NCBI GenBank assembly: GCA_026707225.1 | Contig: JAPOXG010000117.1 | Coordinates: 46,697 to 110,696, forward strand | DNA: 64,000 bases | Origin: Chloroflexota bacterium | Lineage (GTDB): Bacteria; Chloroflexota; Anaerolineae; Aggregatilineales; Phototrophicaceae | Reading direction: 5' to 3' | Part shown: one piece after another, positions 48,154 through 62,545 of the stretch | Layout of the letters: each line of letters opens with the position of its first letter | Position numbering within the stretch: position 1 is the first letter of the stretch | Notes under the pieces: generated by a model | What the model was told of the DNA's origin: nothing | Databases searched by the model: none | Seen by the model: only the letters and a program-made list of their open reading frames with translations | Made by a program: the position numbers and the translations under genes

Positions 48154-48516
48154 GAATTTCCTCCTCAAGCGCAAATCGCGCCATTCCTCTCTCGCCTTCC
48201 CGACAACACTATTATAAGCGCGAGTCGGATTCTTGCTCGCGCGACAATGTTAAGGATAAGCGCAATTGACGGACGCCGTTGAATTTGCTATAACCAGCGG
48301 CGCCTGCTGTACGCGTGATAGGACTATATGTGCCGAGCCAACATTCTCTATATGGGAGTCTATCTTTGGCAGCCCATGTAATAGGCACAAGCCAAAACAG
48401 CGGTTGTCAAGCGATTCCCAGCCTGTAACTTTGCAGGTTCGCGACACTATGGCTACACGGTACGGTGGGTCTGTTCTGATGGGCAGTGCGCGAGTTGCGC
48501 GCTGTCTTTGTTTCAG
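48154..48516. other. 363-base gap with no supportable gene
   Basis: Between two minus-strand genes. Short ORFs here have no family features or ribosome sites. It should hold the aquaporin promoter on the minus strand; a TTGACA is present on that strand near 48410 but no -10 stands at a normal distance. No copy of the interspersed repeat is seen. Confidence 0.5.
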
Positions 48517-54600: not shown

Positions 54601-56352
54601 CTAAGAAAGACCCTTGAGCCACTGTCTGAAGCGCTCGAGAGGCCAAGTGTTGACCACATGCCGCGCTTCCACCCAGCCGCGGCGCGCGTTCGTCACGCCG
54701 AATTCCATCAGATCCAGATGCGCCACCTGGTGGGCGTCGGTGTTGATAGCCAGCGGGACGCCCATGTCCTGCGCCAGGCGCGCCAGTTCGGGCTTGAGAT
54801 CGAGACGCAAGGGATTGGCGTTGATCTCGAGGATGGTCTCCGCTTCCTTTGCCGCCGCCAGCACCGCGTCCCAATCGGCGTCGACCTCGTCGCGGTTGGG
54901 GAATTGCCGCGCTGATGGATGCCCAATCATGCGGACGTATGGATTGCGAATGGCGTTGAGCAGGCGCGCCGTCACTTGCTCGCGTTTTTGGCTCAAGCCC
55001 GAGTGCAAGCTGGCGATGACGAAATCCAAATGCGCCAGCACCTCATCGGGATAATCGAGGCTGCCGTCGGCTTTGATGTCCATTTCAGTGCCGGCCAGCA
55101 CTTCAATCGCCTCGCCCGTCTCATCGTTAATCCGCCGCACCTCTTCCGCCTGCGCCAGCAAGCGCTCAATTGAGAGTCCGTTGGCGATGCCGAGGCTGCG
55201 CGAGTGGTCGGTGATGACGATGTATTGATGACCGCGCTCGACGCAGGCTTCAACCATCTCGCGGATCGTGTTCTTGCCATCGCTCCAGTCGCTGTGCATG
55301 TGCAGGTCGGCGATGATGTCGGCTCTGGTGACCAGTCGGGGCAGGCGCCGCTCGCGCGCCGCTTCGATTTCGCCGCTGTCTTCCCTCAGCTCCGGCGGCA
55401 CGTATTGCATTCCAAGGGTCTCATAGACCTTCTCTTCGCTATCGCAGAGGGTCTTCTCCGCCGAATCGATGATCGTCTTGTTCGCATCGACCGGGCTGAG
55501 CGCGTGCTCGTTGAGGCTGAGCCCGCGATCGAGGGCGATCTGCCGCATTTTGACATTATGCGCCAGGCTGCCGGTGAAGTAGTTGAGCGCGGTGCCCCAA
55601 CGTGATTTCGCCAATACCCGCACATCGACCTGCAAGCCGGAGAGCAATTCGACCGAACTCTTGGTCGGTCCGTGCCCGAGCACGCGCCCGACATTTTCCA
55701 TCGTCACGAAGCGCTGCATGATTGGACCTGAATCATCAGCGGCGACCAGAATGTCGACATCGCCAATGGTCTCCCGTCCGCGTCGGATGCTGCCGGCCAG
55801 CGCGCCTTCCTGCGCCTCCGGCAATTCCATCAGCAGGTCAAGAATCTTCTGCGCAGCCGGCAAAGCCTCGCCGATATTCGCCCGGCCCGTTTGGCGCGAA
55901 AGCGCTTCAATGCCATCTAGAATCTTCTGTTGGCTCTTCTTGCCCATGCCGGCCAAGCCGGCCAGCTTGCCGGCATCGGCGGCGATCTTCAGTTCGTCCA
56001 CCGAGGTGATTTCCAGCTGTTCCCAGAAGAGCTTGGCTTTCTTCGGTCCCACACCGTTGATGTGCATGATATCGACCAAGCCTTCGGGGATCTCAGCTTT
56101 GAGCCGATTATAAAAATCCAGTTCGCCGCTCTCGAGCATCTCGTCGATTTTCGCCGCGATCGTCTTGCCGATGTAGCTTAAGTCGGTCAGGGCGCCTTCG
56201 CTTGATATCACTCGCAGATCGCGCGGGAGGCTGCGAATCGTTTCCGAGGCGCGGCGATATGACAGCACGCGGTGGATGTTGTCGCCGCGGATCTGAAGCA
56301 TATCGGCGCAGCGCTCAAAGATATCGGCAATTTCCCGATTGCTGAGGCTCAA
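54601..56352 (-). CDS. polX: DNA polymerase/3'-5' exonuclease PolX
   Basis: 583 residues. Family X repair polymerase joined to a PHP nuclease. The N-terminal 8-kDa-like and HhH parts (YIGKTIAAKIDEML, HINGVGPKKAKLFWEQL) come first. The polymerase Asp pair is GDVDILV (about 200) with a third Asp in QVDVRVL. The PHP domain follows with HMHSDWSDG (about 350), ITDHSRSLG, LAGTEMDI and INTDAH, all metal ligands. Gap filling in base excision repair or end joining is the usual role. First gene of a polX-SH3-ligA operon. Confidence 0.95.
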   Translation of the reverse strand: MSLSNREIADIFERCADMLQIRGDNIHRVLSYRRASETIRSLPRDLRVISSEGALTDLSYIGKTIAAKIDEMLESGELDFYNRLKAEIPEGLVDIMHINGVGPKKAKLFWEQLEITSVDELKIAADAGKLAGLAGMGKKSQQKILDGIEALSRQTGRANIGEALPAAQKILDLLMELPEAQEGALAGSIRRGRETIGDVDILVAADDSGPIMQRFVTMENVGRVLGHGPTKSSVELLSGLQVDVRVLAKSRWGTALNYFTGSLAHNVKMRQIALDRGLSLNEHALSPVDANKTIIDSAEKTLCDSEEKVYETLGMQYVPPELREDSGEIEAARERRLPRLVTRADIIADLHMHSDWSDGKNTIREMVEACVERGHQYIVITDHSRSLGIANGLSIERLLAQAEEVRRINDETGEAIEVLAGTEMDIKADGSLDYPDEVLAHLDFVIASLHSGLSQKREQVTARLLNAIRNPYVRMIGHPSARQFPNRDEVDADWDAVLAAAKEAETILEINANPLRLDLKPELARLAQDMGVPLAINTDAHQVAHLDLMEFGVTNARRGWVEARHVVNTWPLERFRQWLKGLS

Positions 56353-56499
56353 GGCAACCTCCTGATTAAAGCTGCAAGACTAGAACGCATATTCGGGAAT
56401 AGTATACCAGAAATGCGCCTGCGGTTAAAGATGGTTTGGTCGGCGTGGCGAATGCTGTGGATACACATTTTTAGCGCCAGTTCCGCCGCCGGCGAAATT

Positions 56500-56574
56500 T
56501 GTAGGGGCGACTTATCAAGTCGCCCGAAAGCGCGCGCTGTTGCTGTGACGGGCGAGACAAGTCTCGCCCCTACA
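56500..56574. repeat. Full-length paired-hairpin repeat between polX and the trp leader
   Basis: Left half TGTAGGGGCGACTT-ATC-AAGTCGCCC, right half GGGCGAGAC-AA-GTCTCGCCCCTACA. Outer arms TGTAGGGGCGA/TCGCCCCTACA are perfect. Its left half is identical to that at 973. Confidence 0.85.
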
Positions 56575-56677
56575 GATTCCCATTTCACCGAGTTTATTAT
56601 TTTGTGCGCGCCGAGTCCTGACTCGCGAGGGGCTATGGTTCGTTTTCGAATTGTCCTGTCCCGCTCCTGAATCGCGC

Positions 56678-56706
56678 TTGACAGCGACTTGAATCCGCGC
56701 TACCAT
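56678..56706 (+). promoter_or_regulatory. Promoter of the trp operon
   Basis: TTGACA (56678-56683), 17-base spacer, TACCAT (56701-56706). The predicted start near 56713 gives a leader of about 300 bases that includes the T-box. Confidence 0.6.
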
Positions 56707-56760
56707 CTTCGCAAATTGATATCCCAAAAGACTGAGATCCAGAGTAGTAGGCGTCATCGA

Positions 56761-57000
56761 GCGGTTCAGAGACTCGCTAGCTGCTGAGAATGCGAGACAC
56801 GCAGAGACGCCGAATGGACTGGGGAGTCGCGCAGGTGAAAGGGCAACCGACTAGCTTGCGCCGGAGAGCGCACCGTTAGCAGCGCAGGATATCGACCTTG
56901 CGTCCGTATCCACAAAGCGGTCCGCGCGAGCGGGCAATCAAGGTGGCACCGCGGGAACCCATCTCGTCCTTGAATGGATGATTCGGGTTCTTTTGATTTT
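56761..57000 (+). promoter_or_regulatory. Tryptophan T-box leader with antiterminator and terminator
   Basis: The T-box core AGGTGGCACCGCGGG is at 56941-56955. Its TGGC bulge matches a GCCA tRNA end, that is discriminator G73, as expected for tRNA-Trp. A TGG specifier (56815-56817) lies in the 3' side of a helix closed by GACTC (56771) and GAGTC (56824). The antiterminator pairs GGTCCGCG (56919-56926) with CGCGG-GA-ACC (56950-56959). The terminator pairs GAACCC (56955-56960) with GGGTTC (56985-56990) before TTTTGATTTT. The two structures share GAACC, so uncharged tRNA-Trp would permit transcription. Stem I is only about 58 bases, shorter than the usual 100. Confidence 0.88.
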
Positions 57001-57012
57001 GAGGAGAAGACG

Positions 57013-58536
57013 ATGTTCGAGACCTTGCCACTTGAGCGAACCGACATCAAGCCCGCGCGCGAGGAGATCTACCGACATTTCGAGCATGGCGATCATGTGC
57101 CGGTATATCGAACGCTGATCGCCGATCTTGAGACGCCCGTATCGGTTTATATGAAGCTGAAGGAAGCGGGCAAACCGGCCTTTCTGCTGGAAAGCGTCGA
57201 GGGCGGCGAACAGGTGGGGCGCTATTCTTTCATCGGCGTCAATCCCAAAGGCGTGCTCAGCGTCAAGGACAATGTCGTCAACTTCGAGCGCGACGGCGAG
57301 ACCACGAGATTTGCCGTACCCGAAGGGCAAGATCCGCTGCATGTGATCAAGCGCCACTTTCAGACGGTGAATCCGGTGGCGCTCGAGGGCTTGCCACGCT
57401 TGGTCGGGGGCGCGGTCGGCTACATGTCTTATGACATCGTTCGCTATTTTGAAGATCTGCCGGCCACCGCCAGCGACGATCTGCGCGTGCCGACGGTTGC
57501 GTTCATGCTGCCGGATACGCTGGTGATTTTCGACCACGCCATGCACCAGCTCATCATTTTGGCCAACGCGCATAATACGGGCAATGATCCGGACGCCGCC
57601 TATGAACGGGCGATAGAAAGCATAGACGGGATTGCCGAAGCCTTGTCGGCGCCCTTGGCGCATCCGGCTTACGATATGCCTCTGAATGGCGAACTGGAGG
57701 ATCCGAAAGCGAACATTGAAAAGCGCGTTCACGAAGCGCGCGTGCGGGCGGCCAAGGAATATATCCGCGATGGCGATGCCTTTCAGATTGTCTTGGCGCA
57801 GCGCTTCAGCCGCCATACCGAAGCCAGCCCGCTGCAGATTTACCGCGCCTTGCGAGCGACCAATCCGTCGCCCTATATGTTCCTGCTCGAATTCAGCGAG
57901 GACCTGACGCTGGTGGGCGCATCGCCGGAGATGCTGGTTCGCCTCGAAGATGGCATTGCCTACAATCGCCCAGTCGCCGGCACCAGACGCCGCGGAGCGA
58001 CCGAGAAGGAGGACCTCGAGCTGGAAGAGGAGCTGATCAACGATCCCAAAGAGCGCGCCGAACACGTCATGTTGGTCGATCTGGGCCGGAATGACCTGGG
58101 GCGCGTCTGCGATTATGGCACGGTCAAAGTGACAAAGATGATGTATATCGAACGCTTCTCGCACGTGATGCATATCACAAGCCAAGTCGAAGGTCTGCTT
58201 AGTAAAGGCATGGACGCCTTCGATTTGGTGCGAGCCACTTTCCCGGCGGGCACGCTCAGCGGGGCGCCGAAGGTGCGGGCGATGGAAATCATTGAAGAAC
58301 TTGAAGAAACGCGCCGCGGACCCTATGGCGGGGCGGTCGGTTATTTCAGCTTCGACGGCTCAATGGATATGTGTATTACGATACGCTCCTTGTTGATGCA
58401 GAATGGCGCCATAAGCGTGCAAGCCGGCGGCGGCATCGTGGCCGACAGTGATCCGACGGCGGAATACTATGAAACAATCCACAAAGCCGCGGCTGTCTTC
58501 GAAGCGGTCAAATATGCGGAAAGCGGACTGATGTGA
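57013..58536 (+). CDS. trpE: Anthranilate synthase component I
   Basis: 507 residues. Converts chorismate to anthranilate with TrpG supplying ammonia. The ATG at 57013 follows GAGGAG by 7 bases; the tracked start at 56974 lies inside the terminator. The N-domain has the Trp feedback site LLESVEGGEQVGRYSFIG. The C-terminal chorismate-binding domain has FQIVLAQRFSR, the PVAGTRRRGAT block and FPAGTLSGAPKVRAMEII, then GPYGGAVGYFSFDG. The T-box leader controls it. Confidence 0.96.
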   Translation: MFETLPLERTDIKPAREEIYRHFEHGDHVPVYRTLIADLETPVSVYMKLKEAGKPAFLLESVEGGEQVGRYSFIGVNPKGVLSVKDNVVNFERDGETTRFAVPEGQDPLHVIKRHFQTVNPVALEGLPRLVGGAVGYMSYDIVRYFEDLPATASDDLRVPTVAFMLPDTLVIFDHAMHQLIILANAHNTGNDPDAAYERAIESIDGIAEALSAPLAHPAYDMPLNGELEDPKANIEKRVHEARVRAAKEYIRDGDAFQIVLAQRFSRHTEASPLQIYRALRATNPSPYMFLLEFSEDLTLVGASPEMLVRLEDGIAYNRPVAGTRRRGATEKEDLELEEELINDPKERAEHVMLVDLGRNDLGRVCDYGTVKVTKMMYIERFSHVMHITSQVEGLLSKGMDAFDLVRATFPAGTLSGAPKVRAMEIIEELEETRRGPYGGAVGYFSFDGSMDMCITIRSLLMQNGAISVQAGGGIVADSDPTAEYYETIHKAAAVFEAVKYAESGLM

Positions 58537-61259: not shown

Positions 61260-61925
61260 GTGACCAAGGTTAAGATCTGTGGCATACGATCGGTCGAAAA
61301 CGCGCTGACAGTCGCACATGCCGGCGCCGATTTGCTCGGCCTCAACTTTTATCCGGGGACGCCGCGCTACGTGACGCCAGCGGTCGCGCGCGAGATTGCG
61401 CGGCGATTGCGCGAGGCGCTGGGCGCATCCTGCCCCACGCTGGTGGGCGTCTTTGTCAATGCGTCGGCTGATGAGGTTCGTGAAACTGTGGAGACGGTCG
61501 GGCTGGAATTCGCGCAGCTAAGCGGCGACGAACCTGCCGAGACCCTGTACGCGCTGCGTGACATTGCCTTTAAGGCGATTCGCCCGGCTGATGAAGCGGC
61601 GGCGCTGGCCGAGGTGGAAGGCTTGCGATTCGCCTTTCCTCAGGGCGAAGACGCGCCTTCCATTCTATTGGATGCTTACAGTCGAGAGCTCTACGGCGGA
61701 ACCGGCGAGACTGCAAGCGAGGGCATCGCCCGGGCGGTGAAAGCGGCGGCGCCGCGCCTGATGCTGGCTGGCGGTCTCAACCCGCAGAATGTCGCCGAGC
61801 GCGTACGGCGCATCCGACCCTGGGGCGTGGATGTCGCCAGTGGCGTGGAAGCGGGCGCGCCAGGCCTCAAAGATGCGGGAAAAGTGCGCGCTTTCATAGA
61901 GGCGGTACGGACGGCCGAGGCATGA
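61260..61925 (+). CDS. trpF: Phosphoribosylanthranilate isomerase
   Basis: 221 residues from a GTG with GAGGA upstream. Amadori rearrangement of PRA to CdRP. The catalytic Cys is in VKICGIRSVENAL (about 7). LLGLNFYPGTPRYV, VGVFVNASADEV, LEFAQLSGDEP, LDAYSRELYGGTGE and GLNPQNVAERV are in order, with GVDVASGVEA near the end. A 4-base overlap couples it to the nudix gene. Confidence 0.95.
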   Translation: MTKVKICGIRSVENALTVAHAGADLLGLNFYPGTPRYVTPAVAREIARRLREALGASCPTLVGVFVNASADEVRETVETVGLEFAQLSGDEPAETLYALRDIAFKAIRPADEAAALAEVEGLRFAFPQGEDAPSILLDAYSRELYGGTGETASEGIARAVKAAAPRLMLAGGLNPQNVAERVRRIRPWGVDVASGVEAGAPGLKDAGKVRAFIEAVRTAEA

Positions 61926-62545
61926 GCGAGCGCTTCGACATTTACGACGAAGCGCTGAATCACATCGGCGTGAAGCGGCGCGCGGCGGTCCATCGGGACG
62001 GCGACTGGCATCAGGTCTTTCACTGTTGGGTGATTGGGCGCGAGGCGAGTGGCGCTCCCTTCGTGGTCCTGCAAAAGCGCCCAGACTATCTGGATTATCC
62101 CAACAAGATTGATATCAGCGCGGCCGGGCACTTGCTGGCGGGCGAGACCGCGCGCGACGGAACCCGCGAAATTGAAGAGGAACTGGGTATGCGCCTGGCT
62201 TTCGACGAGCTGATTCCGCTCGGGCGGCGCATTGGGATCCATCGAAGCGGTGAATTCGTCGATTGCCAAATCTGCCATGTTTTCCTCTATGAGTGCGATC
62301 AGCCGCTGGATGCTTACGCGTATCAGACTGAGGAGATAGCTGGTTTGGTCCGGCTGCGGATTGACGACGGCTTGCGCCTGTTTGCGGGCGAAGTCTCCCA
62401 GGTGCTGGCGCCCGCTGTTGGACTGGGTGCGCCGCAAGTCGCGCTCAGCAAAGACGACTTTATTCCCAGCGTCGACCACTATGTTGAGAAAGTCTTGATT
62501 CTTGCCCAGCGCTATTTTGCCGGGGAGCAAGAACTATGGATATGA
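61922..62545 (+). CDS. Nudix hydrolase
   Basis: 207 residues. Nudix box GHLLAGETARDGTREIEEELGM (about 75-96), with one residue fewer than the textbook spacing, as in the IDI-like/YfcD-like subgroup. The N-terminal YDEALNHIGVKRRAAVHRDGDWHQVFHCWV is typical of that subgroup. Substrate not readable; the family hydrolyses nucleoside diphosphate derivatives or acts as isopentenyl diphosphate isomerase-like. Its ATG overlaps the trpF stop by 4 bases, so it is a genuine member of the trp transcript. Confidence 0.88.
   Translation: MSERFDIYDEALNHIGVKRRAAVHRDGDWHQVFHCWVIGREASGAPFVVLQKRPDYLDYPNKIDISAAGHLLAGETARDGTREIEEELGMRLAFDELIPLGRRIGIHRSGEFVDCQICHVFLYECDQPLDAYAYQTEEIAGLVRLRIDDGLRLFAGEVSQVLAPAVGLGAPQVALSKDDFIPSVDHYVEKVLILAQRYFAGEQELWI

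Follow-up and report, generated by a model that had tools for sequence, protein, structure and literature searches.

A tryptophan T-box leader with a full-length Stem I in front of trpE in a member of the Chloroflexota

T-boxes have been described from a range of phyla that includes the Chloroflexi (PMC3766115), and the passages on T-boxes in Wels et al. (2008; PMC2494555) place them in two Dehalococcoides genomes, in one case at trpE. T-boxes that act on transcription require a long Stem I and most of those that act on translation have an intermediate or ultrashort one (PMC7583486), the short Stem I of the translational ileS T-boxes of actinobacteria being covered in the part of this 2020 review that cites Sherwood et al. 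(2015). The same review treats T-box insertions whose function is unsettled as an open question. In the present work, we have analyzed a window of 64,000 nucleotides (the whole stretch of DNA under study) from an uncultured Chloroflexota bacterium, in which a preliminary description had placed a tryptophan T-box that joined an ultrashort Stem I to a transcriptional terminator. Our analyses indicate, with very high confidence, that this leader is a canonical tryptophan T-box which acts on transcription, has a full-length Stem I, and controls the trp operon. It belongs to a known family, of which it is an ordinary and well-supported example, and adds to the control of tryptophan genes through tRNA sensing already known in the phylum.

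A covariance search of the window has identified a match to the T-box model RF00230 at positions 56725–56974, on the forward (+) strand like all other features of the leader, with a score of 104.1 bits (gathering score 93 bits; E = 6.8e-22) that extends over the whole model (model positions 1–219). Folding the leader and scoring it against this model, the check which the preliminary description had proposed, confirmed the T-box. The leader is located directly 5' of trpE (57013–58536, forward strand; TIGR00564, 567.7 bits, cut-off 517.7), and the T-box core AAGGTGGCACCGCG (56940–56953) can be read from the sequence. Both the sequence and the RF00230 fit place the specifier codon TGG at 56815–56817 in the loop GAATGGA, the codon that had been chosen by eye, and GAATGG is invariant in 36 Chloroflexota trpE leaders. 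The T-box bulge TGGC (56944–56947) is complementary to the tRNA-Trp 3' end GCCA. The genome itself encodes a tRNA-Trp with the anticodon CCA, whose gene ends in CCCCTG and hence carries G73, so that both contacts, at the specifier and at the bulge, are complementary. As in class I T-boxes, the specifier matches the anticodon of the tRNA for the amino acid whose pathway is regulated, with trpE downstream, and the UGGN bulge is complementary to the discriminator base and CCA; the fourth bulge position, facing G73, is C in this leader, whereas 46% of the Trp T-boxes in TBDB have U, not C, at this position (PMC7778990). The specifier, the bulge, the G73 of tRNA-Trp(CCA) and the trp genes downstream together support the tryptophan specificity and the control of trpE that had been proposed. 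A chance resemblance, or a degraded T-box without function, has a negligible probability and is already refuted by conservation: the E value speaks against it, a T-box core is found upstream of trpE in all 40 of the 40 Chloroflexota-type trpE loci examined (in one, L012, the contig end falls inside the core), and compensatory changes are seen across the 36 aligned leaders.

The genomic surroundings of the leader were also examined. A consensus scan only, with 10 of 12 matches, has identified a sigma-70-like promoter (TTGACA-17-TACCAT) at 56678–56706 on the forward strand, which would be well placed for a transcription start near 56713. Upstream of the leader and on the opposite strand is a gene for a PolX family DNA polymerase/3'-5' exonuclease (54601–56352). 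The gene order from trpE onwards is trpE-G-D-C-F-(ORF)-B, where the other trp genes were assigned by NCBIfam models. The ORF between trpF and trpB (61922–62545) overlaps the end of trpF by 4 bases and contains, as judged by eye, a Nudix-box-like stretch (GHLLAGETARDGTREIEEELGM); it was not matched by any Pfam or NCBIfam model. Inverted repeats with TGTAGGGGCGA are present at 56499–56575, with copies at 974, 1039, 4347, 4401, 22532, 25334, 58553, 61196, and 62590, and several copies sit between trp genes. In the window there are 19 near-matches to these repeats against 0.9 expected, the genome holds 35 exact matches to TGTAGGGGCGAGAC-N2-6-GTCTCGCCC palindromes, and the repeats resemble a dispersed family of the REP or MITE-like type. 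A 6S RNA (RF00013) was detected at 48298–48474 with a score of 51.5 bits, just above the cut-off of 46.4. Two more T-boxes are found in the same genome, before valS-like (specifier GTC) and pheS-like (specifier TTC) genes, identities which are our reading of the downstream proteins; a tRNA-Thr(CGT) gene (L001:1380–1452) precedes the valS T-box by about 48 bases.

The covariance fit and the minimum-energy fold both place a full-length Stem I of 99 nt at 56730–56828. Its helices are a GACT/AGTC base (56730–56733 with 56825–56828), CCAG/CTGG, GGCGTC/GACGCC, GCG/CGC, and a distal CTCGC/GCGAG (56773–56777 with 56792–56796), and the specifier loop is located between the CCAG/CTGG and GGCGTC/GACGCC helices. 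The two halves of the distal motif, which a Stem I other than a long one would not be expected to contain, are both present and conserved, viz. the internal bulge CAGAGA (56767–56772), whose AGAGA is aligned to the Rfam consensus and kept in relatives, and the terminal loop at 56778–56791, which contains GCTGAGAA (in relatives GCTGTGAA) and is supported by the RF00230 fit and by the relatives. By analogy with the family, this motif would bind the tRNA elbow. The leader thus has the Stem I of a class I T-box, with a K-turn-type base, a specifier loop, an AG bulge, and a distal loop. In the 36 Chloroflexota trpE leaders 92.7% of the alignment cells of this stem are paired and 16 of its 22 pairs have changed on both sides, and in 500 shuffles neither the paired fraction nor the count of both-side changes was reached even once. 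When a Stem I model built from the trpE leaders was applied to 138 further T-box loci of the phylum, 113 of them matched it over its full length.

The preliminary description had instead confined the specifier helix to about 58 bases (56771–56828), closed by GACTC/GAGTC at its ends and topped by a CTGC/GCAG stem, and had combined it with a transcriptional terminator. The four strings (GACTC, 56771–56775; GAGTC, 56824–56828; CTGC, 56781–56784; GCAG, 56801–56804) are present and complementary in this single sequence, and conservation is apparent at several of the proposed pairs, but the strings do not pair with one another. The true Stem I base joins the GACT at 56730–56733 to a 3' side that lies within GAGTC, and it is for this reason that the short helix appears conserved; the CTC of GACTC belongs to the distal helix CTCGC/GCGAG. 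The covariation score of the short helix in the 36 leaders is 0.122 against 0.113 in shuffled alignments, with 102 of the 500 shuffles as high, and in 25 of the 36 relatives its central C-G pair (alignment columns 64/119), one of five basal pairs, is disrupted. When forced, the short helix reaches −20.3 kcal/mol, whereas the free minimum-energy fold of 56725–56835 is the full-length Stem I at −34.6 kcal/mol. The Rfam model likewise recovers a full-length Stem I that starts 31 bases upstream of 56761, a fit which the preliminary description had itself named as decisive against its helix; the interval which it had considered (56761–57000) omits the first 31 bases of the stem. Assignment to the ultrashort-Stem I class, which lacks comparative support for the short helix and is at odds with the distal elbow-binding motif, was therefore rejected and has virtually no remaining probability. 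The unusual feature that had been claimed arose because strings which do not belong together were matched by eye. This negative result removes an apparent exception to the long-Stem-I rule for transcriptional T-boxes, in which a terminator would have been combined with a short Stem I, and the full-length tryptophan leader fits this rule (PMC7583486) and does not break it.

The middle part of the leader consists of Stem II (GCGCAG...CTTGCGC; 56829–56861), as given by the RF00230 fit and the pair counts of the 36 leaders, the Stem IIA/B pseudoknot (CGG/CCG and GCGC/GCGC, with the F-box CCGTTA; 56862–56885), whose pairs are invariant or covarying in these leaders, and Stem III (56920–56935), in which 6 of 6 pairs have changed on both sides. 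Stem I, Stem II, IIA/B, and Stem III all covary in the 36 trpE leaders. The purine motif which flanks Stem III, AAGCG ... AA (56915–56937 with the stem), corresponds to the RRRxG-Stem III-AA motif given in PMC7583486. The folding program used does not allow pseudoknots, and its minimum-energy structure pairs GCGCAGG with CCTTGCGT in place of the IIB pseudoknot and of a hairpin that follows it; the comparative pair counts favor the latter two.

The 3' part of the leader can adopt two forms. The antiterminator (56940–56971; AAGG/CCTT, the bulge TGGCACC, and GCGGG/CTCGT) is 100% paired and nearly invariant in the 36 leaders. The intrinsic terminator (56955–57000), consisting of the hairpin GAACCC...TCGTCC/GGATGA...GGGTTC (56955–56990) followed by TTTTGATTTT, has 94.7% of its cells paired; its covariation alone is not above that of shuffles because the helix hardly varies. 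A generic terminator scan did not list it, a miss that is probably due to its internal loop. The two forms share 56955–56971, so that only one of them can form, and both are conserved. The terminator has a fold energy of −18.0 kcal/mol and the bare antiterminator one of −5.4 kcal/mol, which makes the terminator the default form. The pairing in relatives and these energies bear out the terminator and antiterminator of the preliminary description, and the RF00230 fit, the sequence, and the folds agree with it on these two forms as well as on the core, the specifier, and the bulge. By analogy with the family, uncharged tRNA-Trp would contact the leader in three places: its CCA anticodon would pair with TGG at the specifier, its elbow would rest on the distal motif of Stem I, and its GCCA end would pair with the TGGC bulge. 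This last contact would stabilize the antiterminator and allow transcription into trpE; with charged tRNA-Trp the bulge contact would be impossible, and the more stable terminator would form and stop transcription before trpE.

Control of translation, with the leader sequestering the ribosome site, is a very improbable alternative to control of transcription. It would draw on the Shine-Dalgarno-like GAGGAG (57001–57006), which is situated only 11–16 bases past the hairpin, and on the imperfect U-tract, interrupted as it is (TTTTGATTTT). However, GAGGAG lies outside the hairpin and the U-run, which makes transcriptional control the better reading, no sequestering partner for it was found in the fold, and relatives keep a T-rich run directly 3' of the hairpin.

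The only less standard element of the leader is an extra hairpin, GGATAT-C-GAC...GTC-C-GTATCC (56887–56911), between IIA/B and Stem III, in a stretch after the IIA/B pseudoknot that RF00230 treats as a 26-base insertion. It covaries in the 36 leaders, where 99.7% of the cells of its 9 pairs are paired and 6 pairs have changed on both sides. Its generality was assessed in T-boxes picked by RF00230 alone and aligned with 3'-half and Stem I models. Most of the Chloroflexota Trp T-boxes sampled carry it, and a smaller share of the non-Trp ones. A linker that folds freely with at least 6 pairs is present in 25 of 28 T-boxes with a TGG specifier and in 12 of 40 with another readable specifier (Fisher P = 1.2e-6, a descriptive value since the sequences are related); a count based on the model, which required 7 or more of the 9 pairs and whose alignment was fitted to the hairpin and leans towards it, gives 23 of 28 and 3 of 40, respectively. 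The Val T-boxes sampled have short linkers without the hairpin, and several of the Ile and Phe T-boxes sampled carry a version of it. A near-identical linker hairpin (GGGTATC...CTGTACC) is found in the trpE T-box of Peptoclostridium acidaminophilum, and a T-box on a phage contig (L268, with near-identical copies) has the linker hairpin GAGTATGTTTGTACTC. A scan of viral contigs with AGGGTGGCACCGCG gave putative matches only; a stricter GGTACC pattern yielded T-boxes, 6 of the 8 scanned being confirmed by Rfam. The hairpin looks like an old, optional T-box element that is favored in Trp leaders and is not an invention of this genome. We tentatively propose, at somewhat less than even confidence, that the Trp T-boxes of Chloroflexota and of at least one clostridial species hold a structured domain absent from the standard model, viz. 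a near-invariant TAT/GTA hairpin between IIA/B and Stem III. This domain may determine how the decoding half of the leader is placed relative to the half that senses aminoacylation, or it may touch tRNA-Trp; a spacer or geometric role between the two domains is our guess. A description of the hairpin was not found in the literature searched, and Vitreschak et al. (2008) and Gutierrez-Preciado et al. (2009) lay outside this search, so that an earlier description is possible. The hairpin provides a concrete case of the T-box insertions raised in PMC7583486.

Among the known systems, the Dehalococcoides trpE T-box, as it appears in the T-box passages of PMC2494555, shares the phylum, the regulated gene, and the amino acid with the present leader but comes from a different taxonomic class, the relatives studied here being labelled Anaerolineae, and these passages do not describe the extra hairpin. 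The actinobacterial ileS T-boxes, as far as they are covered in the relevant part of PMC7583486, have the logic of specifier and T-box bulge in common with it; however, in most of them the distal motif that binds the elbow is missing and the ribosome site is sequestered, whereas the present leader has a long Stem I and a terminator. The T-box of P. acidaminophilum (L263) is likewise a Trp T-box at trpE with a very similar linker hairpin, and differs in that a second antiterminator/terminator-like unit follows, whereas the present window has one unit; at L263:1130–1330 the T-box is succeeded by a second T-box core and a terminator-like unit (GGGTGGCAACGCG...TTTTTTT) in a partial tandem arrangement. 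With the class I T-boxes of RF00230 the leader shares a Stem I of full length, which includes the specifier loop and the distal motif, as well as Stem II, the IIA/B pseudoknot, Stem III with its purine flanks, and the antiterminator/terminator pair, and to these it adds a 25-base hairpin between IIA/B and Stem III.
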